This document shows, piece by piece, positions 7,652-28,244 of a stretch of DNA of 64,000 nt (its first letter is position 1; each line of letters opens with the position of its first letter). The position numbers and the translations under genes are program-made. Origin of the DNA: a virus. Under the pieces are notes generated by a model. The model was not told the origin of the DNA. It saw only the letters and a list, made by a program, of their open reading frames with translations, and did not search any database. The stretch covers positions 20,696 through 84,695 of the IMG/VR virus record IMGVR_UViG_3300009128_000008. One strand, written 5' to 3'.

Positions 7652-8662
7652 TTATGCGCCAATTACAGTGCTCTTGTTACCAGCAGATACGCCGCGAGGA
7701 TTGACAATACCAAGACCAATGATCTCGGAAACAACCCAGCCCAACTTAAGCTGCTTGGGTTCATCAGCAGGAAGAACCTCAATATCCTGTCGAACGGGCA
7801 TTACGCCTACGAACTCAGGATCGGCACAAGCAAATACTGTACCAGCAGGAACGATCTTGGAAACCATAAGATCGGCGCCCCAAATATGAGCATGCAGACC
7901 AGTCTGTAGAATCTCACGATGGGTCACAGGATCAATATCACCAACACCAACAGCACCACCACCGGACGACCAATTAAGGATGTCGGTGAATTCGTTGATA
8001 TTCATGAAGAACTTGGTCGTAACAAGGTCCCAACGGTCAACTTGCTGCTTTAGCTCGACAAGGTCGCGCCTTAGCATACCACCGTCAGCAATGTCTTGTA
8101 GGGTGTTCTCAGCCTGAGCAGCAGCATTAAGAGCCGCAAAACCATTAGCATCTTCTTGTGCCATGATTTCTTGACGGGCCTTCTGCACTGCACGGTCAAT
8201 AACGTTAAATCTTCGCCTCTTAACCTCAGCAATACGAACTGTTGGATTTGAGTAAATCTCAAACTCAGGAACAGTTACACGATCGCCAAATACGCGACTC
8301 TCTGGGCCAGTACCATTGCTAGAAATAACAACAGCAGCCACATCGATATCACGATCATAAACAGGGAGTGCACCCTGAGGTAGCGGATCAACAACTAGCG
8401 CCCTACGAAAGATACCTTGATAGTCAAGATTCCTACGAATTGGATTAGCCATAGCTTGAGCCAAAGCGATTTTGCCGTCATGACTCATAATAGCACGGGA
8501 AATTAGCTCATCACGTGCATCATCTGTCAGGCCTGGCTGACCACTTAGAGCTAGATTTGAAGGTGTGTTATCTTCAATAATTGAAGCGTACTTAGTTAGG
8601 GTAGTAAGTGCATCCTTAAGACTGGAAGCATTAATTTCTCCCTGGGTATTAAACATATTCAT
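7652..8662 (-). CDS. major capsid protein (HK97-fold, putative)
   Basis: 336 aa. The call rests on size, composition and position: after portal and protease genes, preceded by a decoration-like gene, followed by a strong terminator. Sequence features fit an HK97-type coat protein: a helical N-terminal stretch (15-90), then LVVDPLPQGALPVYDRD, VTVPEFEIYSNPTVRIAEV (E-loop/P-domain beta strands), a long spine-like helix (RAVQKARQEIMAQED) and a C-terminal A-domain with LMVSKIVPAGTVFACADPEF and IGLGIVNPRGV. The upstream start MNMFNTQ has AGGAG about 9 nt away. Whether the N-terminus is cleaved by the protease (19697-23398) cannot be told. Confidence 0.75.
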   Translation of the reverse strand: MNMFNTQGEINASSLKDALTTLTKYASIIEDNTPSNLALSGQPGLTDDARDELISRAIMSHDGKIALAQAMANPIRRNLDYQGIFRRALVVDPLPQGALPVYDRDIDVAAVVISSNGTGPESRVFGDRVTVPEFEIYSNPTVRIAEVKRRRFNVIDRAVQKARQEIMAQEDANGFAALNAAAQAENTLQDIADGGMLRRDLVELKQQVDRWDLVTTKFFMNINEFTDILNWSSGGGAVGVGDIDPVTHREILQTGLHAHIWGADLMVSKIVPAGTVFACADPEFVGVMPVRQDIEVLPADEPKQLKLGWVVSEIIGLGIVNPRGVSAGNKSTVIGA

Positions 8663-10259: not shown

Positions 10260-11465
10260 CTATACATACCGAAGATATGTGCGCTCTTTCTTTTTCTTTC
10301 CTTCTGTTGGGAAGCGCACATAAACTCCCTCTTCTTTTTCTTTAGTAACTTTTGGCGTCTTGCCCTCTAATGCGCTTTCTTGCCTCTTTAATACTTTATA
10401 CGAGGCTTTAATATCGGTCATCACATCTTCTTCATTGTTAAAATACTTAATCAACTCCTCGTGACTACTAATTTGCTTGGAATTTTCAGCTATAGCCTCA
10501 TTTAATGCCTCAAGAGCGTCTGTCACGTCTTCAACATCACTCTGTACAATAAACTCTTTAACTTTACGAAGCATCCTGTATATAGAGGTTTCCTTCGATC
10601 TATATTGTGTTTCCCTGAGCTGTATTAATTTAATAAATTTTGGAATAATCCTGCTAACATGCCGCGCTAATTTCTTATACGCCCTAAGCATTTTTACAGC
10701 ATCTTGTTTGTATAATACCCTTGCCTGTATTGCAGCATTACGAACATCCGCCGAAGTAACCCCCTCATCATCATCAACCTCGGGACCAGATCGAATCTTA
10801 ATGGACTTTACAGCTTCTGCAGCATCACGTAGCCTTGTTATACTGTTAACTAGCGGACGAAGATCGGGTTCCATTTGAGGATAATCATCAACCAACATAT
10901 CTGAGATTTCTTCTAGAGCAATTATGGCATTTTGTTCAACGCCTTGTACCAATGTTGTGTTAGAGAAAAGCTTTGTAAGACCTCCAACAGCAAACACAAC
11001 ACCAGCAACAATTCCCGCTATTGCTAATGGTGGCAAAGCTTCTTTAACCAATCTGCCAGAACAAGAATCAGCCAATGTCATTAAGTTTTCATTCTTGGTG
11101 CGATCTAGCATAAATGCACCCTTAACAAGTTCATCTACTAATTCTTTTTGCGCTTTTACATATCTGTGTTGAGTAAGCTTTCCATCATTAGGCTTTAAAG
11201 CAATATATGCCATCATGTCATGACGCTCTTTTAAATTCTCCACTAATGCATTGAAGCGATCATATGACGGAGCTACTACTACGGGTTCTGGATGAGCTTT
11301 GTCCAATATATCATCATCCTTTCCGTTTGGTTGTACACCATAAAGAGCTTCCACGGCAGAAAGATCCCGAGATTCATAACTGGGATTTGTTTCCTCTGCA
11401 GCTTCCTTTACTAATCCCTTCTCCTTAGCAATCTTGGTATATTCATCAAAAATTTCGCTATTCAT
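10260..11465 (-). CDS. putative internal virion protein with AHP module and one membrane segment, 401 aa
   Basis: Residues 52-100 carry the module shared with two other virion proteins: ILDKAHP (53-59), VVVAPS (62-67), ALVENLKERH (73-82), then KPNDGK (91-96). A hydrophobic segment LPPLAIAGIVAGVVFAVGG (144-162) could cross a membrane; the rest is helical (200-340) with a Lys-rich C-terminus. One use of such a layout would be a protein packaged in the capsid and inserted into the host membrane at infection; this is inference. Its ATG overlaps the upstream stop by 8 nt (ATGAATAG). Confidence 0.55.
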   Translation of the reverse strand: MNSEIFDEYTKIAKEKGLVKEAAEETNPSYESRDLSAVEALYGVQPNGKDDDILDKAHPEPVVVAPSYDRFNALVENLKERHDMMAYIALKPNDGKLTQHRYVKAQKELVDELVKGAFMLDRTKNENLMTLADSCSGRLVKEALPPLAIAGIVAGVVFAVGGLTKLFSNTTLVQGVEQNAIIALEEISDMLVDDYPQMEPDLRPLVNSITRLRDAAEAVKSIKIRSGPEVDDDEGVTSADVRNAAIQARVLYKQDAVKMLRAYKKLARHVSRIIPKFIKLIQLRETQYRSKETSIYRMLRKVKEFIVQSDVEDVTDALEALNEAIAENSKQISSHEELIKYFNNEEDVMTDIKASYKVLKRQESALEGKTPKVTKEKEEGVYVRFPTEGKKKKERTYLRYV

Positions 11466-12681
11466 TTTTACCCTCTGCAGATTTTTTATTCCTTATGGCT
11501 CTGCGTGCCGGTCCAGAAAACTTATCTACTATTTTTCTTATTCTTGTCTTTGGCGCATCAGCTGGACGATAATGTTTCGGTGGAATTACCAGTCTATTCG
11601 GCATTGCACTAGAATAATTCCTTTCGAAATCCCTAACTACACGCCGAAATGATGGGGACGACATTATAATATCATCATATCCCACCAAATCACGATATAT
11701 ATCTGTCGCCCAAACTAGCAACATATTCTCTACTGAGCCGCCCACTAATGGAACAACCCAATAACTACCACTAGAAACTGTCCCAGGTGCCGCCTTAGGA
11801 GTTGTTGTGGTCCTCCTTGTGGGTGTCCTTGCAGTTGCTGGAGCGGTATATGAAGCCGGCACAATAGTTTCTGTCGTTTCTCGTCTTGCGCTAGGTGTCT
11901 CCGGTTGCTCCTTTTTCCCTTTATCGCGGCCCATCAACCCTCTTAAAGCGCCTGCGCCAGCTATTAACCCGGCACCAATTAAAGCAGTTTTAAGAGTCCA
12001 TAATAACAGTCCGCCTCCAAACCACTTTAACAGACTGGCACCACGTGGTCTTTTAAATAAATTGCCAAATATTCGACCAATTACACCAACGTTTCCACCA
12101 AATCCCTTTCTCTTCGGAAATAAACCGGGAATATCTGGTGTTTGTTTGCGGCGACCAAAAAGAGCAAAAGACACTAATGGTGATGGATCGTCCAAGCTAT
12201 CTAACGAATCCTCGTCACAATATTTTCGCAGACCATAAAACATATCATTGCAAGCGGAACTACTTAATGCGCCAGCCTCAGATTGAATTACAGACTGCCC
12301 AATTGAAGATACCTCGGCGCTACTAATAGGTTTGCCACTTTCAATTTTGGGCTTTAACTTATCAACCATTTTGCCCAACAGCGCACCAAGATTAAACCCA
12401 AAAATCGAATCTAATAGCAATGAAACAATACCTAAAACAGGATTTATTCTAAATAATACAGTGGGAACTAGAAAATTAAGTACAGTCCCAGCAGTTCCAC
12501 CGCCACTTTCACCAACCTTTTCAGCAAAATGATTCTTAATAGACGATGCTATCCCGCCTAATCCTAGTTCACCGAAAATACCAGCACCTTTAATGATCTC
12601 GGCATCAGCTCTGGCCAATTTCTCAACCAAAATGGTATCTGCAATATACTGTAAATCATCTTTTCTTTGTATATTATTCAT
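11458..12681 (-). CDS. putative virion protein with two hydrophobic regions, 407 aa
   Basis: Two Gly-rich hydrophobic stretches, about 65-100 (VPTVLFRINPVLGIVSLLL) and 220-250 (GGGLLLWTLKTALIGAGLIA), suggest membrane-active helices. Between them lie Ser-rich and basic segments, then a Thr/Pro-rich linker (260-300) and a basic C-terminal domain (KIVDKFSGPARRAIRNKK). The ATG at 12681 is chosen over an in-frame TTG three codons earlier. Together with its neighbours (10260-11465, 12700-16494) it looks like a set of large ejected or internal proteins. Family not recognised. Confidence 0.55.
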   Translation of the reverse strand: MNNIQRKDDLQYIADTILVEKLARADAEIIKGAGIFGELGLGGIASSIKNHFAEKVGESGGGTAGTVLNFLVPTVLFRINPVLGIVSLLLDSIFGFNLGALLGKMVDKLKPKIESGKPISSAEVSSIGQSVIQSEAGALSSSACNDMFYGLRKYCDEDSLDSLDDPSPLVSFALFGRRKQTPDIPGLFPKRKGFGGNVGVIGRIFGNLFKRPRGASLLKWFGGGLLLWTLKTALIGAGLIAGAGALRGLMGRDKGKKEQPETPSARRETTETIVPASYTAPATARTPTRRTTTTPKAAPGTVSSGSYWVVPLVGGSVENMLLVWATDIYRDLVGYDDIIMSSPSFRRVVRDFERNYSSAMPNRLVIPPKHYRPADAPKTRIRKIVDKFSGPARRAIRNKKSAEGKNE

Positions 12682-12699
12682 AGTATACAAATGCCTTAG

Positions 12700-15600
12700 T
12701 TATCTTCCGCCGCCTTTTTGATATATATCAGTTTTTACTTCCTGATACCTTTGCGCAATCATATCCAACCATTCGTTATAATACCAATACACACCAGGTT
12801 TTCCACCTTCGCCTTGTAGAATTCTCTTGCGTAAAGATCTTGGTACCATTCGTTCAAATTCAGTTTTAATTCTACGCAACTCTTCATACAATAAATCACA
12901 GAACTTCAAAAACTGGGCTGACGCAGTTTGTCCAGACCAATCTTGAGCCATCGCCTCCACCTCTCTAATGTTGCGAAGTAGTACCGGTCGTTTTAATTTT
13001 TTGCCCTTCTTTTCTGTGGCTACATAATAATCACCACCAGGACCACGCTCAACCTCCAATTTATACCCTAACTCTCGCGCTGCTCGTTCGCGCGCCCTAG
13101 GAGTAGCCCTTGCCCTTCCAATAATTTTTGAAACTAACTGTGGTCCCTCAGCGCCTACCCAGTCACCTAATGACAATATTGTCCTCTGATTTGTAGGAAT
13201 GCGTGGCCACCATTCAGTATCATTTAGATCTAATGTTTTCCAAATAGGAGATCTGTTTGGATCAAAATCGGGTCCTATACGTACATCACGCCCAACAATA
13301 TCTCGGCCGCCTACTCCTCGGTCTCTGCCAGTTCCACGGCCGGCGGGTACCCTGGCTCCACCAGGTCTTCCGGCGCCTCCAGGGCCAACTCCAGCTCCAG
13401 GAGCGGGTCGGGCAGAAATTATTAATATAACACTATTTCTCTGATCTGCCTTTGGGGCTTGCTCCGCCACAACGGTCGTCAGCTCGCCAAATAAAGCTGG
13501 AATCATCCCAGAAAGTATGCGAGCATTTTTTTGATATGTTGCCGCATCAACCTTATCCGCTCCACCTGGCAACAGACTCTTAACCGTCTCTATAAAAGAT
13601 TCTAATCTAGTTGGCTCTGCCATATACGCTGCTTCGAGCTGTTTATTCAAAAGGGCCAGAGCAAACATCCACTGATTAGATGTCAGACCAACCCCGGTAG
13701 GAGCAACATATGGCTCATCCTTCATATAAAGCCACTGACCATATGCATATACAAATCTGAATCCTTGAGGCTTCGCTGGCCATATGCTAGTGCGAGTGAC
13801 TGGGTTAATTCCTTTACGCTTCTCCTCTGGAGATTGTTCCAAACCCGGCTCGGCCCGCTGCTGCTCCTTAGTAATAGGAGTACGCGTTTCCCTCTTTCCA
13901 GCTTCATCACCATATTGGCGAATTACCCTTGTAACCAATCTTTCCTCATCCAGCTTATGGGCGGCCATCCAGCGCTTTACAATTCCGTGCTTCTCTAAAT
14001 ATAATTGCAGCGCAGATAAAGAAGCCAGATCTTGATTCGTAATTTTAACGTTAGGAGGTCCTTGAAGTTTAGACAGATCAACAACAACAGATATCAGCTG
14101 TGTTTTCCCTACATACTTCTTGCTCACAGCATAATTGACCGACTTATCCATAGCCTCTACAATCTTTTTGTTTGTAGGCGCGTACATCTTGGCAGATCTT
14201 ACATCATGTAAATACCCGCGGCCAGCAGGGCCGGGAGTAATAGTGCCTGATATTGTTGATGCTTTTGCCGCTGTTAATACATCATTCCATTTGCGCCTAA
14301 AAGACTCTATTTGCTCTAGTGCAAATGCTGTTTTCTTTCCCCACTTACCATCTGCTGGGCTTGTGCTTCTTGGCCCGGATGTTCCCATCTGAGACACAGC
14401 GGAAAACACACGATCTATCTCTGGTTTAGTAATTTTAACTTGCGCCAACACTCTCTGAGTATCGCCTTTGTTCAATGTATCTTTAAGTTTAAGCATGGAA
14501 GTTTGCATTTCCATTACCTTGTTAACTATAGGGATCTGAGCGGCACTAGGAGTTTTACCACTGGGTCCGCGAGGCCTAGGAGAGCCTGATGGAGGGGCAT
14601 CAAGAGGAGCTGGTACTGGTGGAACAGGATTTGCCTGCTTAACAATATCATCTAAAGCTGAATTAGCTCTGCGACGACGTGTTGGTGGTTTTGTTCCCTC
14701 ATTCCACTGTTTGGACCACGACAACACATCTTCTTGACTCATGCCGGCAAACTCAGGCCCCAAAGCGGAGATTGTATCAAAAAATTTCTTACTCTGATTT
14801 CCAGCTTTCACGGCAGCCATATAATTTATAGTTGCTTTATAATTAGTTAGTGTTGTTTCATAGTTTTTGGTACCTTCTTCATATCTGTCCAACAATCCTC
14901 TTAACCTAACTGCCGCCGAACTTAAATTATTATAAGTTTCGCGTGATATATCTATATAATAAGGCTTATCTGATGCCAAGTGTATATATGGTGTAAACTT
15001 TCTTATGGCAGCCGTAATCTTTGTAATTGCTTGCGCTATCATAGGGCCATATTTTACATAGCCCCACTCAAACCCCAAAAACTTTGCCAATCGATCAATC
15101 CGCCTTGTCCACCTTCCACCAACTTTAAACGTTGTTTCAAGTTTCTTTTTAACAGCCTGCAATAATGAAATCACAGCAGCAACAGATGCAGCAAATTCCT
15201 TCTTACCACTAGTGTTTATTTCTGGCGATTCAGAAATGGGGCCCATAGCGCTTGTAAACTTGGCGGCAATCTTTTTTAACTTGGCACTTGTCTTTTCATT
15301 TAATTCCTCACACGGCTTCCAAAATTTAGCATTAAACTCAGCAACCAAATAGTTGTAAATAGCAAGTGCAGCCGCATTTACTTGTTTTGTGTCAAGTCTA
15401 AACCAGGAATATAAATTATCCTCAGATTTTTCAGCGTCTCCTGGTAAAGGCGCCCAAACAGATTGGGCGTTATCTGCCCAAATATCATGGGCAGTATTTG
15501 GCGGAGAAACTAACGACCACGAAACATCGCCCTTCTGTCGAATTTTTAGAATGCTGGGCCCTAATACATCGCCGGGACCCCATTTGGTACCCCTCTTCTT

Positions 15601-16494
15601 TCCTGAACCAGGTTGAGATCCCCAAAAGAATTTAGATTGGCCAGTTTCATTTCCTATTGCAGCTAAGTGTTCGTAATTTCCTTTTAATTTATTAGCAATG
15701 CGCCGCGGACCTTGAGAAGGATGAAAGTCTCCTACAATATACTTATTATAAAGCGCCACATATTTGTTTAAATCTTCAGGAGACTGGCCGGTAGCTTTTG
15801 CAAAACTATCGCGCGCTTTTTGATCTTTCAATAAGGCTCTAGCATTCAATGTCCATATGGGCCAATTTAAACCTAAGGCGGAGAGAGCCCCAAAAACTAA
15901 GGGGCCAATCTCAGCATACGTATCTTCCAACTCGCCTGCAACAGAATCCATATCAACCGGTCCTGTTGGCATTTTTGGTGGTTCTTCTTTTTTAGGCTCC
16001 ACCGACATTTTCGGCTTGTCCGAAGGTAGGCGCCACTCTTTAGGCAGATTAGGGTAATCAGCAGTTTTCTCTAAATCCACGCCCAAAGCCACAGCGGCAG
16101 ATCGTATAGCATCATCAATTACCTCAGCATATTTACCAGTTGGTTTTTTATTTACAATGTCTAAAATCTTCTTATGAGCACTCTCTTCAGTCTCAACAAC
16201 ACCATATCCGCCCTGTGATGGAGCAACCTCAACATCACCATCAGGATGAGCGCTTTCTAACACATCCTCGCCATCTTCATCTATAGCGCGATACAAATGA
16301 GTTTCGGCCATTTTGAAAGTATGGATTTTGTCTTCAAGAGATTCAGCCTCTTTTTCAAAACCTTTCTCCCTCATTGCATTGGCCAAACGCACCATATCCG
16401 CAAACAAATCTTCAGTTGGCTCATACGATACACTATCTGATGCCTTTTTAACAACTTCCTTCAACTCTGCTTCTTTAATCATGTTTTTTTCCAT
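12700..16494 (-). CDS. very large virion-associated protein with AHP module, 1264 aa
   Basis: N-terminus: a helical hairpin LFADMVRLANAMREKGFEKE (30-49), then the AHP module, VLESAHP (78-84), VEVAPSQGG (88-96), VVETEESAHKK (99-109), KPTGKY (117-122). The centre is long and helical; near residue 715 ADGKWGKKTAFAL resembles the core of peptidoglycan-binding (PGBD-type) repeats. A Pro-rich linker lies near 615-640 and a Gly/Arg/Pro-rich linker near 1035-1080 before a helical C-terminal domain. It could be a tape-measure-like, internal or ejected protein. No enzyme motif is seen. Size and position support a structural role, not a particular one. Confidence 0.6.
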   Translation of the reverse strand: MEKNMIKEAELKEVVKKASDSVSYEPTEDLFADMVRLANAMREKGFEKEAESLEDKIHTFKMAETHLYRAIDEDGEDVLESAHPDGDVEVAPSQGGYGVVETEESAHKKILDIVNKKPTGKYAEVIDDAIRSAAVALGVDLEKTADYPNLPKEWRLPSDKPKMSVEPKKEEPPKMPTGPVDMDSVAGELEDTYAEIGPLVFGALSALGLNWPIWTLNARALLKDQKARDSFAKATGQSPEDLNKYVALYNKYIVGDFHPSQGPRRIANKLKGNYEHLAAIGNETGQSKFFWGSQPGSGKKRGTKWGPGDVLGPSILKIRQKGDVSWSLVSPPNTAHDIWADNAQSVWAPLPGDAEKSEDNLYSWFRLDTKQVNAAALAIYNYLVAEFNAKFWKPCEELNEKTSAKLKKIAAKFTSAMGPISESPEINTSGKKEFAASVAAVISLLQAVKKKLETTFKVGGRWTRRIDRLAKFLGFEWGYVKYGPMIAQAITKITAAIRKFTPYIHLASDKPYYIDISRETYNNLSSAAVRLRGLLDRYEEGTKNYETTLTNYKATINYMAAVKAGNQSKKFFDTISALGPEFAGMSQEDVLSWSKQWNEGTKPPTRRRRANSALDDIVKQANPVPPVPAPLDAPPSGSPRPRGPSGKTPSAAQIPIVNKVMEMQTSMLKLKDTLNKGDTQRVLAQVKITKPEIDRVFSAVSQMGTSGPRSTSPADGKWGKKTAFALEQIESFRRKWNDVLTAAKASTISGTITPGPAGRGYLHDVRSAKMYAPTNKKIVEAMDKSVNYAVSKKYVGKTQLISVVVDLSKLQGPPNVKITNQDLASLSALQLYLEKHGIVKRWMAAHKLDEERLVTRVIRQYGDEAGKRETRTPITKEQQRAEPGLEQSPEEKRKGINPVTRTSIWPAKPQGFRFVYAYGQWLYMKDEPYVAPTGVGLTSNQWMFALALLNKQLEAAYMAEPTRLESFIETVKSLLPGGADKVDAATYQKNARILSGMIPALFGELTTVVAEQAPKADQRNSVILIISARPAPGAGVGPGGAGRPGGARVPAGRGTGRDRGVGGRDIVGRDVRIGPDFDPNRSPIWKTLDLNDTEWWPRIPTNQRTILSLGDWVGAEGPQLVSKIIGRARATPRARERAARELGYKLEVERGPGGDYYVATEKKGKKLKRPVLLRNIREVEAMAQDWSGQTASAQFLKFCDLLYEELRRIKTEFERMVPRSLRKRILQGEGGKPGVYWYYNEWLDMIAQRYQEVKTDIYQKGGGR

Positions 16495-16538
16495 TGCCGT
16501 TTTTTAAAGCTTTGGGTTGCTATTTATTGCTATTATGA

Positions 16539-16829
16539 TTATTCCTGATCCTCGTCCAGATCAAGTAACATCACGCCATCCACAAAAATAGGATTAACCT
16601 TCTCCCTATAACTAGTATCTGTGGCAAACTTCTCTTGCAAAGCCTTAAAAGCCACTCTCAATTTTGGATCACTCTTCACACGCCGTTCAAACTCATCCAA
16701 ATCACCCAATACATCATTAATATTCGGGGCTTCTGCTTTCTTCTGCTGCTTCTCTAGAGCCTCTCTTTTTAGCTCATTTTTAACATACTCCCTAAAGATT
16801 TCGGATGACATTGCTGCAGTCCAATCCAT
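16539..16829 (-). CDS. hypothetical protein, 96 aa
   Basis: Helical and charged, with QQKKAEAPNINDVLGDLDEF in the middle (about 30-49) and an acidic C-terminus LLDLDEDQE. The ATG at 16829 has GGAG spaced 6 nt, better than the ATG four codons upstream, so it is used. Starts a transcription unit or follows a 116-nt gap without a gene. No family recognised. Confidence 0.55.
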   Translation of the reverse strand: MDWTAAMSSEIFREYVKNELKREALEKQQKKAEAPNINDVLGDLDEFERRVKSDPKLRVAFKALQEKFATDTSYREKVNPIFVDGVMLLDLDEDQE

Positions 16830-16957
16830 AATATTCTCCATAATCTACATACAGGTATACTGGTCTATAATAATATTAAGTTATGCGCTCATTATTTATA
16901 AATGCGCGCTTTATTTAGAGAAAAACTAGCCTATTCCCTTATTATCTACATGCTGAT

Positions 16958-17650
16958 TTATAGCCACAAACACTCTATGCTGGAATGAACACTACTAGGC
17001 GGAGCCGTTACAAGAGCGATAGCTGGATAGTCCGTGCTGATCTGTCTTGTAGTTAATAGGCCGCTCTCATTCACAAAAAGAGGAGCATTTAATGGATATC
17101 TTTGGTTGCTTTCAAATTGGTCCGTTTGAAAAATCATCCTCATAAACCACACTGTCATTCTAGAACTAGCTAATGTAGAATCATCGCCAGGAACATTTGG
17201 AACCTGATAAGTATAATTAACTACTGTTCTTATGGCGTCCATAGTAGAGCCACCTGTTTGACTAAAATTTAGCTCCGTTCCAGCCAAAAATGTTACTACT
17301 CCATTTCGCGGTATAAGCTCAACATCTACCGGATTGGACATAAACGAAACCGCCATAACATTTGGATTTCTAAGCTCAACTTTAACGTCCACCGGAGTAA
17401 CCAATCTACCATGAGACATAACTCCTTGAGCCGGAGCTATAACCACCTCATCTATTGCGACCGATGAAAATGCATTCTTTTTAATATCATCAATTACACC
17501 AATTGGAGCAGATCCATCGCTAGTGCCACAAACTACCTGATTACCATGTAAGGTAAGCTGTGCAATCATTCCCGGTTCAAATTCTGCGCTGGGGTCTACT
17601 GGAAAGGAAAAAGGCAAGGCATTTCCAGCCTGTACAATCCTAAGTGTCAT
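16958..17650 (-). CDS. putative capsid decoration-type protein, 230 aa
   Basis: Begins MTLRIVQAGNALPFSF and is beta-rich throughout (VVCGTSDGSAPIGVIDD, VTFLAGTELNFSQTGGS). The start and the first 60 residues parallel the protein at 8773-9447, so these are divergent paralogues on the two sides of the large internal-protein genes. A terminator lies directly upstream (17711-17750), so it should have its own promoter. A surface decoration or stabilising role is inferred. Confidence 0.6.
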   Translation of the reverse strand: MTLRIVQAGNALPFSFPVDPSAEFEPGMIAQLTLHGNQVVCGTSDGSAPIGVIDDIKKNAFSSVAIDEVVIAPAQGVMSHGRLVTPVDVKVELRNPNVMAVSFMSNPVDVELIPRNGVVTFLAGTELNFSQTGGSTMDAIRTVVNYTYQVPNVPGDDSTLASSRMTVWFMRMIFQTDQFESNQRYPLNAPLFVNESGLLTTRQISTDYPAIALVTAPPSSVHSSIECLWL

Positions 17651-17710
17651 CTTATCACCTCTTAAATATTTGGAGTTATTCTCTCATATATATAACAGAA
17701 TACAGCAAGA

Positions 17711-17750
17711 GAAAAAGAAAAAGCCGGCCATTAAAAAAATAGCCGGCTTA
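17711..17750 (-). terminator. intrinsic terminator after the small acidic paralogue run
   Basis: AAGCCGGC (17721-17728) pairs with GCCGGCTT (17742-17749), 13-nt AT loop, then TTTCTTTTTC on the minus strand. It closes the operon that ends with the 115-aa gene. Confidence 0.8.
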
Positions 17751-17768
17751 AGCTAATATATTTATTAT

Positions 17769-18116
17769 TTACTCAATTTCTTCTTCTTGTGTAAACCTTT
17801 TGTCGTCTTCGTCATAAGTGTTATCTACATCATCTACATTAAATACCCAGCCTTTATTCTTTAAATTTTCAAGCATCTTTTCGCTGGTCAATCCCTCAGT
17901 AGCCGGGTCATCAAGCTTTTTAGAAACCATTAAAATTAACTGTGCTTCTTTTTTTAAGTTGTTCTCATTTAGTATATTAGCAGCTTTATTAAGATAAGAT
18001 AGTATTTTGTATTTAGTATTATTTTTACTATGAGCTTCTTTTTTATTTTGAAGCTTAATTAATTCGCTTTCAAGATCGGAAAGGAATTCATTTTCTGACT
18101 GCTTATTAAAAAACAT
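17769..18116 (-). CDS. small acidic virion-run paralogue, 115 aa
   Basis: Contains the recurring helical hairpin: YLNKAANILNENNLKKEAQL (about 45-64) and a C-terminal acidic tail (DDVDNTYDEDDKRFTQEEE). The start overlaps the upstream stop by 1 nt (TAATG). Together with the next three genes it forms a row of small acidic proteins sharing this hairpin, just downstream of the protease-scaffold gene, so an assembly role is plausible. Confidence 0.6.
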   Translation of the reverse strand: MFFNKQSENEFLSDLESELIKLQNKKEAHSKNNTKYKILSYLNKAANILNENNLKKEAQLILMVSKKLDDPATEGLTSEKMLENLKNKGWVFNVDDVDNTYDEDDKRFTQEEEIE

Positions 18117-18388
18117 TATTTATCCATTTTCGAGGATAATATTTCCATTACATTTGTAATAGCTTCTGATGCCATACTCTTATTTTCTATCCGTCCTAAT
18201 AAATCAGCCGCCTTATTCAAATATTCCATGGCAAACAGAACGGCATAATGGTCCATTACTTCTTGTGGGACATTGGCTGGAGCATCTTCTTCCTCCAATC
18301 CAACCACTGATTCAGTTTCTGGTTCGTCCTCAGTCTGTCCTAAAATTTCAGCCATTTCTTTGGCTATATCATATTCTTCTTCCGGCAT
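18116..18388 (-). CDS. small acidic virion-run paralogue, 90 aa
   Basis: Very acidic first half (QTEDEPETESVVGLEEED) and the helical hairpin EYLNKAADLLGRIENKSMAS (about 54-73) in the second. Abuts the 301-aa gene and overlaps the 115-aa gene by one base. Compared with its neighbours it is the hairpin plus an acidic arm only. Confidence 0.6.
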   Translation of the reverse strand: MPEEEYDIAKEMAEILGQTEDEPETESVVGLEEEDAPANVPQEVMDHYAVLFAMEYLNKAADLLGRIENKSMASEAITNVMEILSSKMDK

Positions 18389-19294
18389 TTATTTTTCATC
18401 CTCAAATGATGATTCTGTTGATGGTTGTGCTGATGATTTTGTCACAAATTTTTCTCTAAACTTTTCTAACCATTTTCGCGCTTCTTGTTGGGCGCGTTCT
18501 TTCTTAAATTCTTTTTCGAACTCGGCTTCTTCCTCTGCTTCAAGCTGTTCCTGGTATTCTTGTTCTTCTGCTTCTTCCGCTTCTTCTTGTTCCAACATCT
18601 GAGTGAGATCTTGAACCAATTTATCTAACTCCTCTTCTTCTGGATCAAATTCGCGCTCTATTTCTTCTGTAGTTTCCTCTACCTCAACATCAACATCAGG
18701 ATCATCGGGATCGTCACCCTCATAAGACTCAAATAAGCTACCCGGTTCATCTTCTGCTAAAAATTTATCTAATTCTCTTTCGGCATCTTGTGCTTCGCCA
18801 ATATCATAAACATCAACCATATACTCTGCTAAATCTTCAGTTGGCGTATCACCCTCCGGTTCAAAAGCATATTCTTCTGGTTTTACCCCGACTCCCCTAA
18901 GAAGATCTTCGAACTTGCTTTTCCTTTCGCCTCTTTCAACGCTTTTGAGCTGCTCCAATAATTCCTGCTCTGTTTCTTCCGGCATTATATCTGGCAAACC
19001 AGCCAATCCCGGGTCATCCTCAGCGGCCTCAGCCAACATACCTTGAACACCATTTAGCACCAACGCAGATGCCTTTTCTAAACCAATATTATCCAAATCT
19101 GAAGATACACTAATAAATAATTCGGCTAGCTTACTTACAGCAGCTGCAAATTTTTCCTCTACACTGCACTCATCTGGAACAAGGGGGTCCTCACTCTCTT
19201 CCGCTTTTTTATAAAACATCTGAGTATGTGAGTCACTAGCAATTATTTTGCTCATCTCAGAGGCAACTGCTTCACTAACGCTATATTTTGACAT
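18389..19294 (-). CDS. acidic coiled-coil paralogue, 301 aa
   Basis: Starts MSKYSVSEAVASEMSKIIAS, similar in layout to the 105-aa neighbour (MSSNDKNVGDMLAQSMIDIL). The hairpin KLAELFISVSSDLDNIGLEK lies at about 55-74. The remainder is extraordinarily acidic (Glu/Asp runs 150-270) and ends in a Lys/Arg helix and Ser-rich tail, reminiscent of scaffolding proteins. Scaffold role is inference from composition and place beside the protease fusion. Confidence 0.6.
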   Translation of the reverse strand: MSKYSVSEAVASEMSKIIASDSHTQMFYKKAEESEDPLVPDECSVEEKFAAAVSKLAELFISVSSDLDNIGLEKASALVLNGVQGMLAEAAEDDPGLAGLPDIMPEETEQELLEQLKSVERGERKSKFEDLLRGVGVKPEEYAFEPEGDTPTEDLAEYMVDVYDIGEAQDAERELDKFLAEDEPGSLFESYEGDDPDDPDVDVEVEETTEEIEREFDPEEEELDKLVQDLTQMLEQEEAEEAEEQEYQEQLEAEEEAEFEKEFKKERAQQEARKWLEKFREKFVTKSSAQPSTESSFEDEK

Positions 19295-19302
19295 AATTAT
19301 CC

Positions 19303-19620
19303 CTATTCTTGCGCTTTGTCGCTCTCTGACACAACAATATCGGCTTTCTCTTCTTCCACAGGTCGCTCAATACTCATTATGTCTTTGGCGGCCAATAGTA
19401 CATTAGCAGCGCTCTTCGGCAGTCCTATGCTATCTAAAATTTCGGATGCCTCTATTAATTTAGTACAGGCATCCGTTAATATCTCTTCCTTAGTTTTCTC
19501 TTTGGCAGCGGCTTTCTTTACTTTGGGCTGTTCAAAAATTTTATTGTAATTCTCATCACTTAATATATCGATCATAGACTGGGCTAACATATCGCCCACA
19601 TTTTTATCGTTTGAACTCAT
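19303..19620 (-). CDS. small acidic virion-run paralogue, 105 aa
   Basis: N-terminal helix, a basic KVKKAAAKEK link, and the hairpin LIEASEILDSIGLPKSAANV (about 58-77), acidic C-terminus. It is the first of four tandem hairpin proteins after the protease-scaffold gene and follows a 22-nt hairpin in the DNA (19643-19664). Confidence 0.6.
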   Translation of the reverse strand: MSSNDKNVGDMLAQSMIDILSDENYNKIFEQPKVKKAAAKEKTKEEILTDACTKLIEASEILDSIGLPKSAANVLLAAKDIMSIERPVEEEKADIVVSESDKAQE

Positions 19621-19642
19621 TGAATCCCCATTGATACGGCAA

Positions 19643-19664
19643 GGGGCAAGTAAAAACTTGCCCC
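19643..19664 (-). repeat. perfect 8-bp hairpin after the protease-scaffold gene
   Basis: GGGGCAAG (19643-19650) and CTTGCCCC (19657-19664), loop of six. On the minus strand the hairpin is followed by TTGCCG, not a T-run, so it is a weak or partial terminator, or an mRNA-end processing structure that sets expression of the downstream small genes. Confidence 0.6.
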
Positions 19665-19696
19665 AGTTAATATTATATTTTTGGGTTTGTTTTCAA

Positions 19697-22600
19697 TTAT
19701 ACTTTTCTGCCAGCCCAAATCTTATTAAGCTCTGTCTGAAGATCAGATGCAGCCGCTTCAGGCTCGGGTAGTGTAATTGAATCGCCGGTGCCCATCATAC
19801 CAACTTGCGGTATGGAGGCTTGCTTTTTCATAGGAGTCTGTGTAGATACCCATCGCTTCATGCTATTAAATGCCTCGTCATTAAAGCTCATAAGCTCTTT
19901 GACTTGCTCATTTACAGCAGTACGAACTAGCATTCCACGGTCTACCATGTCATGTGCTAATTCATAAGCTCTGGCAATCTTTACCTTGTATGATTCCTGT
20001 TTTTCCGCAAGCTTCTGGGACTCATGCTCCTTCGTAAGCTCAGATGCAAATTGAGAACATTCAGCATCTCCCTCGCCATAATACTGTTTCCAGTAACTAA
20101 CAGCCTCGGCATCCAAACCATGAGCAACCAGTCCGTCAAAATCCTTCTCAGGATCAATCTTGCCGGCGGTTACCATCTGCTGAATCTCTTCGGCCATCTT
20201 ACGGACTCTAGGAGGCGCCGTGGCAACATCCATTACCTTGTCATGAGCCTCTTCTAATGTCTCAACCTTGCCTAATTCACCAGTAGGTGCAACATCCAGT
20301 TGGGTTGTGACACCACCGCCGGGATGTGCTTCATCTAATACATTAGAAAATGTCAATCCTTGTTGTGCCATTTTTGATAATTCCTCTCTATATGCTACGC
20401 GCCCTTCCTTTGTTGTTAGGTCAAACTTTTCACTTGCGCCAGTCATTTTTGCCAAATCATCTGGAGTGGGACCCTCTACCTTTAAACTGCCATCTGGACC
20501 AAGCGTCGCTGCAGTTGCTGCATTGTCATCATCATCTGCTCCAAAGCCCTTGCCTACCATTGGATATACTTCTTTTGGTTTATATTCAAGTTTTGCCGGG
20601 CGTTCTGGCGTTGGTCCAACATCGATTCCGCCCAATGGATATGCGGTTGTGCTCTCAACTGGCTCAGCTGGCGCAGCTTCATCCTCTTCAAGCGCCCCAT
20701 AAAATTCAGCCGAACCCGGAGCATTTACTGGCGCTTCTAATTCAGCATCAACTTCCTTCTCAATTTCTTTAAGAAACTCTGGCGAAGGCGTAATTACATC
20801 TTCCTCTAACACCACATCAGCATCGGCAACATCAACATCGGCAGCATCAGCTGTGTCAGCAGCATCAGCAGCATCAGCAGCATCAGCAGTAGCGCATTCA
20901 CACTTATCATCGCCACACTCTTCGCAGGCGTCTTCAGCTTTCTTCTTCAGCTGCTCTTTTGTCTGCTTAGATTTCTTGGTTAGCATTTCTGCTCCTCGGG
21001 CGTACTTGACAAATGCTTCCATCAGCTTATAACAATCGGCAATAGTTGATTTGGCATCATCGCAAGCGTCCTTGACCAAAGTGTTTACAGAGCTAGCGTC
21101 TTTCTCGTCTAGCTTCTTCTCATTCTTGTAAATATGCTCGGCCAAACGCAACTCTTCAATATGCTCTGCCATATCAGCGCCGACCTTCTTCATACCTACA
21201 ACCAGAGACTTTCCTAGTTTCTTATGCATTTTAACCATCGCGCCAACAGGTGGTAATGCTCCTTCACCAGGACCTTCACCTTCAGCCTCGACTTCTTCTG
21301 CTATTCCGCCAAACTCATCTAGCTCTTCACCCTCTTCTAACAGGGCTTCAACAGCTTCCCGGACATCAGAAACGTTATTTTCTAGTTCGTTAAGAAGACC
21401 TGGCAGCTCTTCCTTGGGATCGCCAGTTCCGCCTTCATCAGGAACAGGTTCTCCTTCAGGCTCAAGTGCTTCAGGAGCTGCGCCTAATTCCTCAGGTGCA
21501 ACAGGCTCTTCTGCAGTAGCAGGTGCTGGTGGTGCAGGCGGTGGAGTTAATTGTGCACTCTTTAGCATTGCATCTGCTTTCTCAAACCCTTCAGACCTCA
21601 ACACGTCCAAAATTTTACGGCCATATTTTTCAGTTGCCACAAAATCGTAAAAAGCTTCTACTTTGCCGTCAGTGATCTCTTGGACAGTTGAGCTGAGAAT
21701 AAGCTTGTCATCAGCATATACCTGCCAACGACTATTTGCCGGATCCTCAGTTCCGTCTGATTTGGCCGCCTTAATAAATTTGGCGGTCAATTTGGCTCGA
21801 AGAAGCATCTTTTTACGAGCCTCATCGTCACCATATAGTCCTTCCACATCACCAACATCAGGAAAAGGAGCCTCTCCTACCATCTGCTTATCTTCCTTAT
21901 CGCGGGTAGTTTGATAGTCCTCTTTAGGATACGTTGGCTTTCCTGGGGTGGGTTCATTACCCTCTCCACCACCTTGGAAGTAGGCCTTGCGAGTCTTAAG
22001 CGCTTCTTTGGCTTTTTCCACCGCAGCCTGACGACGCATTGCCCGCTCTTCTTCCTCAGCTAAACGTTGCAATCGCTTTTTGCGCTCTACTTCAGATTCG
22101 CCAGCACTGTCAGGTCCGGGAGCCATCCCGTCGACAGGACCAGTATCCATCTGACCCACCATCTGTTTATCCTCATTATCACGGGTGCCCTGATAATCTT
22201 CTTTGGGATACTTTGGTGCGCCAGGTGTAGGCTCATTTACTCCACCACCACCTTGAAAATAAGCTTTCTTTTCAGTCATTTTACCCTCGTTTTGATTTTG
22301 TGACAACAAACTATCTACGTCATTTTGTAATTTGTTTAAACTTGTATGAATGCCATTAACGACACTAGCAAACTTTCCTAATTCTACATCTGTTGAGGCG
22401 TCTTTTTCTTCTTTCGTCTCTATTGGCGCCTCGCAAACATCATCAGCTTCTTGTTTTTCTTGCGACATCTCTTCACCTTCTTCGGCTTCTTCCACTGTTT
22501 CCGCCTTTTGTTCAAGTGCCTCAAGCTTTTCACAAGCTCGCTCTAAATCTTTTTTAATTTCAGCTACTGCTTCAGGATCAACTAATTCGTTCATATCGGC

Positions 22601-23398
22601 CAACTTTGAAATAAGTTCTTCTTTGGAATCTACATACTGCGCAATACTGTGTGCTGCAGCAACTATATGTCTAATTTTTGCCTTACCATCCGCTCCGCTT
22701 ACCACTATTGATAATTCGATTGGGTTAAGATCGCAATTTATTTCCCCATAACAACTCTTCTGTCTCATATGGGGGCAAAAATCATTTTCTGTTCGCGCTA
22801 CTTTGCCACATTCGGAACAAATTGCTCGTCCAACAGCAGTTCCCATAGAAACTGATGTAGCATAGCCAGTTGAAACTTTTCTAGCCAAATCTGGATAGTT
22901 TACCTTGTCAAGAGCACATAAGGCAATAATTCTTTTCTTGGGATAATCATAATAAGTATCAACAATAACACCACGGACCATATCCACAGAACTTGATTTA
23001 TGATCCAGACAAAGCGGTCGTCCTATCCATTTCTTATAAGCCTTAAGTAATTCCTCTTCTGGAAATATATCATTATTAGAATTCTTATATGGCTGCATAT
23101 TAGGATCTGAACAAACCCACTTCCATGAATCGCCCTTCTTTTCCCAATGGGCGTTTATCTCTTCGCCATTAGCATCTTTCTTAATAGTTCCGTCGTCATT
23201 TAGCAATACAGATTCGGCCGCATGCATCATAATGGCGGAAAAATATAAAAAGTCTTTCGCCCTAGGAGCGATCACTTTTAAATCGGCCGCAATCTTCTCG
23301 AACCTCTCCAAAATAGCAGGATTAGACATAACGCTTTCCTGCGATTGAATCGCGTCCGGTGTGATAGTAACGGCTTCTCCTAATTTGATTATAGTCAT
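19697..23398 (-). CDS. prohead protease-scaffold fusion (putative), with repeats and AHP module, 1233 aa
   Basis: Residues 110-245 look like a prohead serine protease: GRPLCLDH (His133), MVRGVIVDTYYD, then STGYATSVSMGT with Ser184, as in HK97/U35-type proteases where His and a Ser-x-Gly follow in that order. A Cys cluster (C194, C197, C208, C216, C222, with H210) inserts a zinc-like knuckle. Beyond about 300 the chain is acidic, coiled and scaffold-like. A repeat, KAYFQGGG..NEPTPG.P.YPKEDY..TRD..DKQMVG, occurs at about 376 and 473, with a decayed third copy at about 915. A second Cys cluster (about 813-830), an Ala/Asp repeat and the AHP module (VLDEAHPGG near 1020) follow. Protease call is moderate; the fusion layout is direct. 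Confidence 0.6.
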   Translation of the reverse strand: MTIIKLGEAVTITPDAIQSQESVMSNPAILERFEKIAADLKVIAPRAKDFLYFSAIMMHAAESVLLNDDGTIKKDANGEEINAHWEKKGDSWKWVCSDPNMQPYKNSNNDIFPEEELLKAYKKWIGRPLCLDHKSSSVDMVRGVIVDTYYDYPKKRIIALCALDKVNYPDLARKVSTGYATSVSMGTAVGRAICSECGKVARTENDFCPHMRQKSCYGEINCDLNPIELSIVVSGADGKAKIRHIVAAAHSIAQYVDSKEELISKLADMNELVDPEAVAEIKKDLERACEKLEALEQKAETVEEAEEGEEMSQEKQEADDVCEAPIETKEEKDASTDVELGKFASVVNGIHTSLNKLQNDVDSLLSQNQNEGKMTEKKAYFQGGGGVNEPTPGAPKYPKEDYQGTRDNEDKQMVGQMDTGPVDGMAPGPDSAGESEVERKKRLQRLAEEEERAMRRQAAVEKAKEALKTRKAYFQGGGEGNEPTPGKPTYPKEDYQTTRDKEDKQMVGEAPFPDVGDVEGLYGDDEARKKMLLRAKLTAKFIKAAKSDGTEDPANSRWQVYADDKLILSSTVQEITDGKVEAFYDFVATEKYGRKILDVLRSEGFEKADAMLKSAQLTPPPAPPAPATAEEPVAPEELGAAPEALEPEGEPVPDEGGTGDPKEELPGLLNELENNVSDVREAVEALLEEGEELDEFGGIAEEVEAEGEGPGEGALPPVGAMVKMHKKLGKSLVVGMKKVGADMAEHIEELRLAEHIYKNEKKLDEKDASSVNTLVKDACDDAKSTIADCYKLMEAFVKYARGAEMLTKKSKQTKEQLKKKAEDACEECGDDKCECATADAADAADAADTADAADVDVADADVVLEEDVITPSPEFLKEIEKEVDAELEAPVNAPGSAEFYGALEEDEAAPAEPVESTTAYPLGGIDVGPTPERPAKLEYKPKEVYPMVGKGFGADDDDNAATAATLGPDGSLKVEGPTPDDLAKMTGASEKFDLTTKEGRVAYREELSKMAQQGLTFSNVLDEAHPGGGVTTQLDVAPTGELGKVETLEEAHDKVMDVATAPPRVRKMAEEIQQMVTAGKIDPEKDFDGLVAHGLDAEAVSYWKQYYGEGDAECSQFASELTKEHESQKLAEKQESYKVKIARAYELAHDMVDRGMLVRTAVNEQVKELMSFNDEAFNSMKRWVSTQTPMKKQASIPQVGMMGTGDSITLPEPEAAASDLQTELNKIWAGRKV

Positions 23399-24388: not shown

Positions 24389-25147
24389 CTAATATAAACT
24401 CACAAAGCCTTGATTTTCGACAGGGCCCACACCTCTAATGCCAGAATAATTATCATATTGACCAACTAACGGCACTTCTTCTAGATCTATCCCATATTCC
24501 CGCAACAAATCCTGCAAACGCATCTTACGGAGCCCCATTCTCCTTCTTTTTCGATTAGCAAATGGAAATTGCGCCGATGGCCTGTTTACATCAGTCTTCG
24601 GAGCCCATGATTGTTGAGGCATAAATGCGGGAGGAACATTACCCATATTGAACCAATCACGCTCAAGACTTACTATGTCTTCATCGGTTACGTCATTTGC
24701 GTCTGTTTTATGACGCTTAATGAATAATGTATAAAACGCCTTAGTACTAGGGTCCAAATCTTTGCCAAAATCTATTTGCTTTGCCTCTTCTAATGCTTTG
24801 TCTACATCCCAATTATCATGTTTTATACGATACAGGGCTGCAGCAGTACCGGTTCTATCCTTTCCATGTAAACAGTGGATATAAGACGGTTTATTGTCGG
24901 TCAATAAATCAACTATATTGTCGGAAAGGTAATTAAATAAATGTATTGTCTCTGGTCCCTGTAAAGGAATGATGATATGTTCGATACCAAGCTCCTTAAC
25001 TATCGGGGATATTTTATTACCAACCTTTTCATCAAGGCTAATTATACGCTTTATCCCAAAAATATTAGATAATATTTGCAGATCTTTCCCACTAGGAGCG
25101 CCGCCCCTATAAATACCATCATCTATTTCTGAAAAACGCTCCGGCAT
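24389..25147 (-). CDS. dual-specificity/tyrosine phosphatase-like protein
   Basis: 252 aa. Residues 91-100 HCLHGKDRTG are the P-loop of Cys-dependent phosphatases (HCxxGxxRT/S-G; Cys92 nucleophile, Arg98 phosphate binding). The preceding GIYRGGAPSGKDLQIL and IKRIISLDE (1-40) are the typical start of atypical DSP/Siw14-like enzymes. The C-terminal 100 residues form a non-catalytic extension rich in Pro, Arg and aromatic residues. The gene abuts the 245-aa gene inside the structural operon, so the enzyme may be virion-bound or modify capsid or host phosphoproteins (or inositol phosphates). The family call is good; substrate unknown. Confidence 0.85.
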   Translation of the reverse strand: MPERFSEIDDGIYRGGAPSGKDLQILSNIFGIKRIISLDEKVGNKISPIVKELGIEHIIIPLQGPETIHLFNYLSDNIVDLLTDNKPSYIHCLHGKDRTGTAAALYRIKHDNWDVDKALEEAKQIDFGKDLDPSTKAFYTLFIKRHKTDANDVTDEDIVSLERDWFNMGNVPPAFMPQQSWAPKTDVNRPSAQFPFANRKRRRMGLRKMRLQDLLREYGIDLEEVPLVGQYDNYSGIRGVGPVENQGFVSLY

Positions 25148-25885: not shown

Positions 25886-26220
25886 CTATGACGCCTCACA
25901 GTTCGTTCTTCATCCCAGTATACATCCTTCATTCTTAGTCCGCCATTTACCGGAACAATTGACACAATAGACCAACAATTAAGAAATACATGGTTCGATT
26001 TTCCTGTCCCTTTATCATAACACTCTACAACCAAGCAATCACCCATTAAATCTATTATCCTACCACGCACCACACTCTTTTGGTCCATATCACAATCACT
26101 GAACTTAAATGTAGTATGCGCATCGCCACAATACACTTCCACCATCTCATCTTGGAGGTAATGCATTATTGCCGCGCCATAAGAGCTTATTTCTACTACT
26201 GGAGATTTTGCTTTAGCCAT
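25882..26220 (-). CDS. hypothetical small beta-rich protein, 112 aa
   Basis: Strand-rich sequence (VRGRIIDLMGDCLVVECYDK, VFLNCWSIVSIVPVN), similar in outline to small SH3/Sm-like barrels, but no signature allows a family call. ATG overlaps the previous stop by one base; the C-terminus is basic (ERTVRRHR). Confidence 0.6.
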   Translation of the reverse strand: MAKAKSPVVEISSYGAAIMHYLQDEMVEVYCGDAHTTFKFSDCDMDQKSVVRGRIIDLMGDCLVVECYDKGTGKSNHVFLNCWSIVSIVPVNGGLRMKDVYWDEERTVRRHR

Positions 26221-28244
26221 TACATTATCCTATTCAGCGTAAATGCCCGTCTAGACCTATTCAATTGGTCAAAACTTGTTTCCGCACACTTAGAAATTAA
26301 CCCCGGAACCACTGTTGAGGTAATTTTTATTTTCTTATCACAATCTGTAATTATGCTTAATCCGTCCGAAACACAATCACACAATGCTTGCACGGCATCT
26401 ACTACAATTGTTTCGCTACCTAATACAGAACACTGCAGTTCTACCGTATTATCACTCGCTGAACTGTGAATAGAAACCTTGGCATCAGCAATTTTCATTA
26501 ACAAATCAGAAGCTACTCTAGCAAACTCCACCTTATTGAAAAATGATTCGGTTTCCGCCTCTATTTTAATTAGAACATCTGTGGTGGGAAGCTCTCTATT
26601 TAATATGCTATTTTTCACTATACTCTCCAACGGACCATTAGCCTCTCTGAACAAAGACTTTATAAATGACACAACCTCACCCCATATACCCTTTTCTGTA
26701 GTCTTATCCTCTTGTGGAACTAATTTTGCTGTGGATTTTCCTGTTTTTACATCTTTTAGTTCTTCTGGCGAATACTGATCATGCCACTCTTTAACGGCTG
26801 GTTTTCTTCCTGGGGGCGGTGCTGGTTGCGATACAATTCCCGATAATTGAGGTAATATTTTCTTAACAAAAGTATTATATAATGAAGTAACCTCACCAGA
26901 ATATCCCTTGATATTTGCGGTAAAATACTTATTCAAACCTAATACTACTGTAGCGCTCGTGGGATCGCCCGCTTCCATCCATTCCAAAGCCTTATCATAA
27001 CGGCCACCAATCAGCCTCCAATATCCCTCCGCACCATCTTCCGGGGTATCATAAGCTCTCCATTCTGCGCCTGTATGAGCATATTGTTTTCCGGAGCCGG
27101 TAAAGTCCGTTGTAGACATCACATAATAAGGCTTTCCAGACTTAATCCATGCTGGGAACGCCTTAATATTACCAACATTATTACAAGGCAATTTAATTGG
27201 ATTGCGCCCGCTCTCTAAAACAACTTGCGCCCACGCTACACCTAAAGTCTCGGCTGTTGGATCTTTTCCAAATGCCCTTCTATATCCCTCTCTTAAAACA
27301 TTAGCAAAACCAACCTCGCTCAAATGAGTCATCTTACGCGGGACTCGCTCTGCTAATTTGATAAGCTCGTCTTTTCTATTAGCATATACATTCATTATCT
27401 TCTGTAGCCGCAATTTATCTCGCGGTCTAACAGAAGTTCTTTGATCCATCACCCATACTCTTGCTTGGAAAGAAAATTGTGAGCCCGGCATTGCAAATCT
27501 ATCCGTCATAACCTGAATAATAGTTTCTCCGGCAGCAATATTGGGAGCCCTCTTATGCGGCTTTCTAACATCAGCCGTCATTAGAGTTCCATTAGCAATA
27601 GCTTCTTTTAGATTTTCGGCCAATAGTGCAATATTCTGGTCCGAAAACATTGCATCCATATATTCCGGCGACAAATCTGTAAGACCTTCTATCCGAGTAA
27701 AAAGCTCATCTGCCAATCTTTTCAATGGAGATCCTTCCGATAAGCCTCCCACTTCTATATCGGCCGCTGTCAATCCGCTATACCAAGAAAAATCTTTAAG
27801 CTTCTTTCCATAACTCTTTTGAAGCTCGATATCATAACTCTCGGGCATTACCTTTTTTATTTTATCAAGAAATCCGGGCTCTTCCATTTCTTTAAAAGTA
27901 TAATACCAAACTTTATTCGCATCGCCCTCTACTTTATGAATTTCTGTCCAGAGCTGTTTTGTAAGATCTTTAACTTCTTCTAATGCTTCTCCGTATGCAT
28001 TTACCTCGCCATCTCTAATAATCTCAGATAAGTTATTGATCTTTATTTCTAATTCTTCAACTATCTTACCTGTATATTCGGTTTCTTTATTTAATTTAGC
28101 AACTTCGGCTCTGTAGTCTGAGTCTGTTATTCTGCGTAAAAAATTCTTAAATCTGCGCAAAATTCCAGCGACTTTGACAACTTTTTTGTTATCAACGGCC
28201 TGTAATTCAATAGCAATTTTCCTTATCTCATCAGTATTATGCAT
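26220..28244 (-). CDS. virion protein with lysozyme-like domain, 674 aa
   Basis: N-terminal 330 residues are coiled coil. Residues about 325-480 hold a muramidase/glucosaminidase-like fold: ETLGVAWAQVVLESGR with the catalytic-type Glu near 341, NNVGNIKAFP (about 354-363), WRAYDTPEDGAEGYWRLIGG, RYDKALEW and NKYFTA, the pattern of glycan-cleaving lysozyme-like proteins (FlgJ/LysM-associated type). The C-terminal part after a Pro linker is a separate helical-beta domain. Such a domain in an internal virion protein would locally open peptidoglycan during DNA entry. ATG overlaps the upstream stop (ATGCATAA). The wall-lysis role is inferred. Confidence 0.65.
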   Translation of the reverse strand: MHNTDEIRKIAIELQAVDNKKVVKVAGILRRFKNFLRRITDSDYRAEVAKLNKETEYTGKIVEELEIKINNLSEIIRDGEVNAYGEALEEVKDLTKQLWTEIHKVEGDANKVWYYTFKEMEEPGFLDKIKKVMPESYDIELQKSYGKKLKDFSWYSGLTAADIEVGGLSEGSPLKRLADELFTRIEGLTDLSPEYMDAMFSDQNIALLAENLKEAIANGTLMTADVRKPHKRAPNIAAGETIIQVMTDRFAMPGSQFSFQARVWVMDQRTSVRPRDKLRLQKIMNVYANRKDELIKLAERVPRKMTHLSEVGFANVLREGYRRAFGKDPTAETLGVAWAQVVLESGRNPIKLPCNNVGNIKAFPAWIKSGKPYYVMSTTDFTGSGKQYAHTGAEWRAYDTPEDGAEGYWRLIGGRYDKALEWMEAGDPTSATVVLGLNKYFTANIKGYSGEVTSLYNTFVKKILPQLSGIVSQPAPPPGRKPAVKEWHDQYSPEELKDVKTGKSTAKLVPQEDKTTEKGIWGEVVSFIKSLFREANGPLESIVKNSILNRELPTTDVLIKIEAETESFFNKVEFARVASDLLMKIADAKVSIHSSASDNTVELQCSVLGSETIVVDAVQALCDCVSDGLSIITDCDKKIKITSTVVPGLISKCAETSFDQLNRSRRAFTLNRIM

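Follow-up and report, generated by a model that had tools for sequence, protein, structure and literature searches.

A conserved module of about 48 residues in three head-cassette proteins of an uncultured large bacterial virus: a candidate docking element of prohead assembly

The window analysed here is a stretch of 64,000 nucleotides from an IMG/VR virus record (IMGVR_UViG_3300009128_000008, positions 20,696 to 84,695). On its minus strand lie three open reading frames, P1 (401 aa), P2 (1264 aa) and P3 (1233 aa), which encode proteins predicted to act in the head assembly of a large uncultured phage and have a module of about 48 residues in common (Table 1). The cassette runs in the order P3, P2, neighbouring genes and P1, and the major capsid gene follows.

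Table 1 Features of the head cassette in the window with their positions and strand
Feature	Position	Strand	Remarks
Major capsid protein (MCP)	7652..8662	(-)	downstream of P1; 54% identical to phage G gp27
P1, 401 aa	10260..11465	(-)	N-terminal targeting-like arm (1-140), hydrophobic segment (~139-165), helical body
Module copy in P1	11175..11318	(-)	residues 50-97; DILDKAHPEPVVVAPSYDRFNALVENLKERHDMMAYIALKPNDGKL
N-terminal motif of P1	11400..11465	(-)	SEIFDEYTKIAKEKGLVKEA; second element common to P1 and P2 orthologues
410-aa protein between P2 and P1	11458..12690	(-)	two hydrophobic segments; lacks the module; position as for the ~360-aa gene in relatives
P2, 1264 aa	12700..16494	(-)	corresponds to P2 plus proteins encoded by separate genes in most relatives
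P2 residues 614-840	13975..14655	(-)	homologous to a separate ~385-aa gene (i1) of relatives, E 4e-9
Module copy in P2	16129..16272	(-)	residues 75-122; DVLESAHPDGDVEVAPSQGGYGVVETEESAHKKILDIVNKKPTGKY
P3, 1233 aa	19697..23398	(-)	predicted prohead protease-scaffold fusion
C-terminal helical segment of P3	19841..20017	(-)	residues ~1128-1186; homologous to phage G gp21, E 1.5e-7
Module copy in P3	20201..20350	(-)	residues 1017-1066; NVLDEAHPGGGVTTQLDVAPTGELGKVETLEEAHDKVMDVATAPPRV
Protease part of P3	22619..23398	(-)	residues ~1-260; head maturation protease family

P3 is laid out as protease, variable linker, module and conserved helical tail, with the module near the C-terminus just ahead of the conserved C-terminal helices. 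Its N-terminal part matches phrog_18299 (head maturation protease, E 2e-14) and also gp19 of phage G, and with H133 and S184 invariant among four aligned relatives this part is a predicted head maturation protease with conserved His and Ser. As it is joined to a tail part homologous to gp21 of phage G the whole protein looks like a protease-scaffold fusion. In phage G gp21 is a separate gene between the protease and major capsid genes, and its position in that cassette suggests that it serves as the scaffold. Foldseek searches with models of the P3 tail and of P1 gave no significant match; the P1 body resembles generic helical bundles, and for the P3 tail there were weak viral matches, not significant, to capsid protease/scaffold proteins of other viruses. 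The linker of P3 holds two repeats of ~37 residues (AYFQGGGGxNEPTPGxPxY...EDKQMVG, at 21875-21985 and 22154-22264) that are conserved in relatives, and an enrichment of cleavage motifs in the linker (85 against a shuffle mean of 39) was set aside, as it stems from a handful of conserved sites that recur through shared descent.

In most relatives a P2 of ~400 aa is followed by separate genes for proteins of ~385 and ~510 aa. For the ~510-aa family the match to the long P2 found in other genomes lies at E 1e-7 to 2e-5, with only a weak one (0.014) to the window P2. As judged by these matches the window P2 is a composite protein, pointing to a fusion or splitting of genes within the cassette. Only the first member (P2) carries the module, and since the ~385- and ~510-aa proteins of relatives lack it they would need another route into the head if they are packaged. 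Mean identity across P2 (reference L055) is 52% over residues 1-30, 51% over residues 51-94, 55% over the module and 14% over residues 171-366. No database family was found for P1 or P2, and Pfam matches to SKA1, WXG100 and TnsD fell below the curated cut-offs.

For P1 the mean identity to the window protein is 54% over residues 1-22, 45% over the module, 38% over residues 98-140 and 14% over residues 141-401. In P1 and P2 the first ~140 residues are thus conserved with the remainder almost free to vary, a pattern like that of propeptide-bearing internal head proteins. Gene position and this arm pattern suggest an internal place in the head for P1 and P2, which would probably be ejected. The three proteins had been described from the window sequence as otherwise unalike, which does not hold for P1 and P2 as both have the additional N-terminal motif SEIFxxYxKIAxEKGL(V/I), clearest in relatives; no clear copy was found in P3. 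A form of this motif, SSEIFREYVK, occurs in the 100-aa protein encoded upstream of P2 (16539-16841), and the ~360-aa protein before P1 in relatives starts with SNSEIxxYVDxxIVE. The motif is a second candidate head tag.

The resemblance among the three module copies was compared with chance by Smith-Waterman alignment of the whole proteins with 500 shuffles, using the window trio alone. P1-P2 scored 80 against a null maximum of 66 and P2-P3 scored 98 against 82, the best alignment passing through the module in both cases, whereas P1-P3 scored 63, which was reached by 15 of the 500 shuffles and is not significant, and its alignment lay off the module. The trio of the window thus aligns better than shuffled sequence by way of P2, although the P1-P3 pair alone does not. 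When orthologues were included hhalign aligned P1-P2 at the module with E=9.6e-12, P2-P3 with E=4.2e-8 over 45 columns that are exactly the module, and P1-P3 again at the module with E=0.023, which is weak on its own. An HMM built from P2 only reached P1 in 23/39 cases at E<1e-3 and P3 in 8/74, and of the HMMs built from P1 only and from P3 only neither retrieved the other family. With P1-P2 and P2-P3 beating all 500 shuffles and the orthologue profiles in agreement, the module is present in P1, P2 and P3 and the homology of its three copies is confirmed. A chance or compositional resemblance, which the P1-P3 score in the window alone might suggest, is hardly conceivable as it is already refuted by orthologue conservation and by the profile-profile comparison. 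The copies lie where the sequence-only reading had placed them (residues 53-96, 78-122 and ~1020-1060) with their limits refined to those of Table 1, and in the searched loci the module begins at residue ~60 in P1, ~95 in P2 and ~1000 in P3.

The most constant feature of the module is [GA]x[VIF]E[TDN], whose Glu is kept in 35/35 P1, 44/54 P2 and 63/65 P3 sequences. The His of AHP is kept in all 35 P1 and all 54 P2 sequences and in 38 of 65 P3 sequences, and in one subgroup AHP is lost from P3 and retained in P1 and P2, which argues that the scaffold and cargo copies are under different constraint. Among the hallmarks first proposed for the module, AHP stands for P1 and P2 and decays in P3, and VAP is not conserved in relatives. 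The predicted form is a short helix, an extended stretch and a capped helix (confidence moderate in P3 and low in P1), which would suit a docking peptide whose folding takes place on the binding partner. No significant profile match was found in Pfam or PHROG (the best E-values being 0.055 and 0.098, each for a single member) and the module is covered by no known family of either.

A near-invariant Glu (complete in P1, all but two sequences in P3) would also be expected if the module served chiefly as a cleavage substrate for the P3 protease, a cut after the Glu of [GA]x[VIF]E[TDN] removing the arms of P1 and P2 and freeing the scaffold tail of P3. The prohead proteases of phiKZ, SPN3US and T4 all cleave after Glu (PMC5694885, PMC10052503, PMC9026906), the consensus of P1 around such a cut, LVE followed by N, resembles the (L/I)xE motif of T4, and the module Glu is the only conserved Glu of P3 in this context. 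We nevertheless consider this account unlikely. The Glu is substituted by H, L, M or P in 10/54 P2 sequences, the residue at cleavage position P3 varies between families, the major capsid protein of the window is without such a motif and the conserved ~48 residues far exceed the length of a protease motif; moreover the [TDN]xxE that follows the Glu reads as a helix-capping box, which would give its conservation a structural cause. A substrate site is also not exclusive of docking, as the capsid targeting sequences (CTS) of T4 combine targeting and cutting.

Searching IMG/VR with P3 yielded four near relatives. With a P3 profile the number rose to 168, and 80 of these were retained. The module HMM was seeded with seven sequences from the window and two relatives (L004 and L006) and run on 7,094 ORFs from 82 loci, some of them near-identical, where it found 74 P3, 60 P2-like and 39 P1-like entries, a recovery that is partly by construction as the seed was drawn from these families. 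The absence of any other carrier is not by construction, and among the same 7,094 ORFs no credible one was found beyond the orthologues of P1, P2 and P3. The profile thus retrieves three head-cassette families only and no cytoplasmic proteins, in keeping with the sequence-only reading. P1 and P2 both have the module in every locus where both genes are present. Exactly three copies, all inside the head cassette, were found in 18 of 19 viral records of the clade (85-459 kb, of which even large ones may be fragments), the remaining record having four through a tandem duplicate in P2, again all within the cassette, and further records agree with the three-copy pattern where their contigs are long enough. 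To call the module a transferable tag, as had been proposed, therefore goes too far, as it is fixed in the same three genes clade-wide with the tandem duplication in P2 as the sole change observed. The P2 orthologue with two tandem copies lies at L079:17222-19039, and the P3 copy of that locus is degenerate (E 0.1).

The module profile gave no match in Bacillus phage G, SPN3US, phiKZ, T4 or Motura, with positive controls working in the same run, and none in the distant capsid relatives Rctr197k, LR745208 and Tunturi_5. Searches of 50,697 GenBank phages by tblastn with P1, the P2 arm and the P3 tail returned nothing significant, and P2 as a single-sequence query of viral contigs gave no match, single sequences reaching near relatives only. 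The P3 profile found no relative in GTDB genomes, so that no host or provirus was identified there.

To our knowledge the selection of internal proteins entering the head is largely unknown in giant phages. As the module occurs in three copies, always in the same three genes and in nearly every related genome examined, its most likely role is that of a capsid-targeting or docking element of prohead assembly borne by scaffold and cargo alike, a role we hold to be just on the probable side. The idea that the module directs proteins into the prohead, or else marks a protease site, came with the sequence-only reading and is partly supported; restriction to head-cassette families fits the prohead-directing role, and packaging in the head, like a binding partner, cleavage and ejection, is what we infer. 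P3 would be the protease-scaffold around which the prohead forms, with one copy of the module near its C-terminus. P1 and P2 would join the prohead by the kind of contact made by the scaffold copy too, the partner being either the shell at its inner face or the scaffold, and the untagged neighbouring proteins may enter by contact with P2. Once the prohead is assembled, the scaffold would be degraded by the protease part of P3, which would probably also trim the P1 and P2 arms, freeing the cargo as in the CTS-bearing internal proteins of T4. Two versions can be envisaged, one in which the module attaches cargo as well as scaffold to the shell and one in which cargo binds scaffold; loss of AHP from P3 in a subgroup where P1 and P2 retain it tips the balance slightly towards a third partner common to both and away from a symmetrical contact between modules. 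In its fullest form, which we put forward tentatively and at somewhat less than an even chance, this would be an undescribed capsid-targeting domain present in three copies per genome across a large clade of uncultured jumbo phages, in which the scaffold-protease bears the label of its cargo and both compete for or share one docking surface. One compact element would then join cargo to scaffold in phages whose genomes reach 459 kb, and targeting would be testable by a single 48-residue fusion; if it works the module could serve as a cargo-loading tag.

The strong conservation of the P3 tail around the module would also suit a constant interaction site in the mature virion, for example with the portal, the DNA or the inner capsid surface, with part of the P3 tail staying in the head and the module not being an assembly tag. 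Scaffold regions of protease-scaffold proteins are however normally destroyed in maturation and the module lies in arm and linker parts of moderate to low predicted order, which makes a mature-virion site distinctly unlikely. A targeting role may be shared or owned by the SEIFxxYxKIAxEKGL motif, which is the most conserved part of P1 and has related N-termini in the two other cassette proteins named above, of 100 aa and ~360 aa. That this helix is the real signal and the AHP module a leftover of old duplication with family-specific roles is more doubtful still, as P3 is without a clear copy of the motif and a relic would not have been kept in three copies by each genome, invariant residues included, across a clade in which the bodies of P1 and P2 retain only ~14% identity.

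The docking element proposed here has its closest functional parallel in T4, where internal proteins carry a CTS with affinity for the core that is removed by the prohead protease (PMC9026906). As with the T4 CTS (e.g. that of IPIII) one element is found on otherwise different proteins, that of T4 acting through affinity for the scaffold core and being removed by a Glu-specific protease (PMC9026906). The CTS is however ~10 residues at the extreme N-terminus whereas the module is ~48 residues and lies 50-100 residues inside P1 and P2, the module is also present in the scaffold-protease, and the T4 genome has neither a match to it nor sequence homology to it in the CTS. By analogy the module would work like the T4 CTS but is unrelated in sequence, and we do not claim CTS membership for it as both sequence and position differ. 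The long N-terminal arms of P1 and P2 resemble those of the ejection and inner-body proteins of SPN3US and phiKZ (in SPN3US gp47, gp53 and gp54, with arms of 111-254 residues). SPN3US gp47 has a propeptide of ~111 residues followed by a transmembrane helix (PMC5694885), and in P1 a hydrophobic segment likewise comes directly after the arm; gp53 and gp54 are ejection proteins with long N-terminal propeptides whose first 15 residues are identical (PMC5694885, PMC10052503). Unlike in our clade the protease of these phages is not fused to a scaffold carrying the element, for which they show no match. It is noted in PMC5694885 that no T4 gp22-like scaffold had been confirmed in a giant phage and that what the long propeptides do is a matter of speculation. 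The cassette itself is most like that of Bacillus phage G with its related major capsid protein (gp27), gp19 corresponding to the protease part of P3 and gp21 to its tail; in contrast to the window the protease and gp21 of phage G are separate genes and its 497-kb genome is without the module.

Other genes were also observed in and around the head region. A dual-specificity/tyrosine phosphatase-like gene (24389-25147) lies inside the structural region between the portal and the protease-scaffold, and a 674-aa protein with a glucosaminidase-like domain (26220-28244) adjoins the head genes. In one relative a GIY-YIG homing endonuclease gene (L006:16363-17163) is inserted between P3 and P2.
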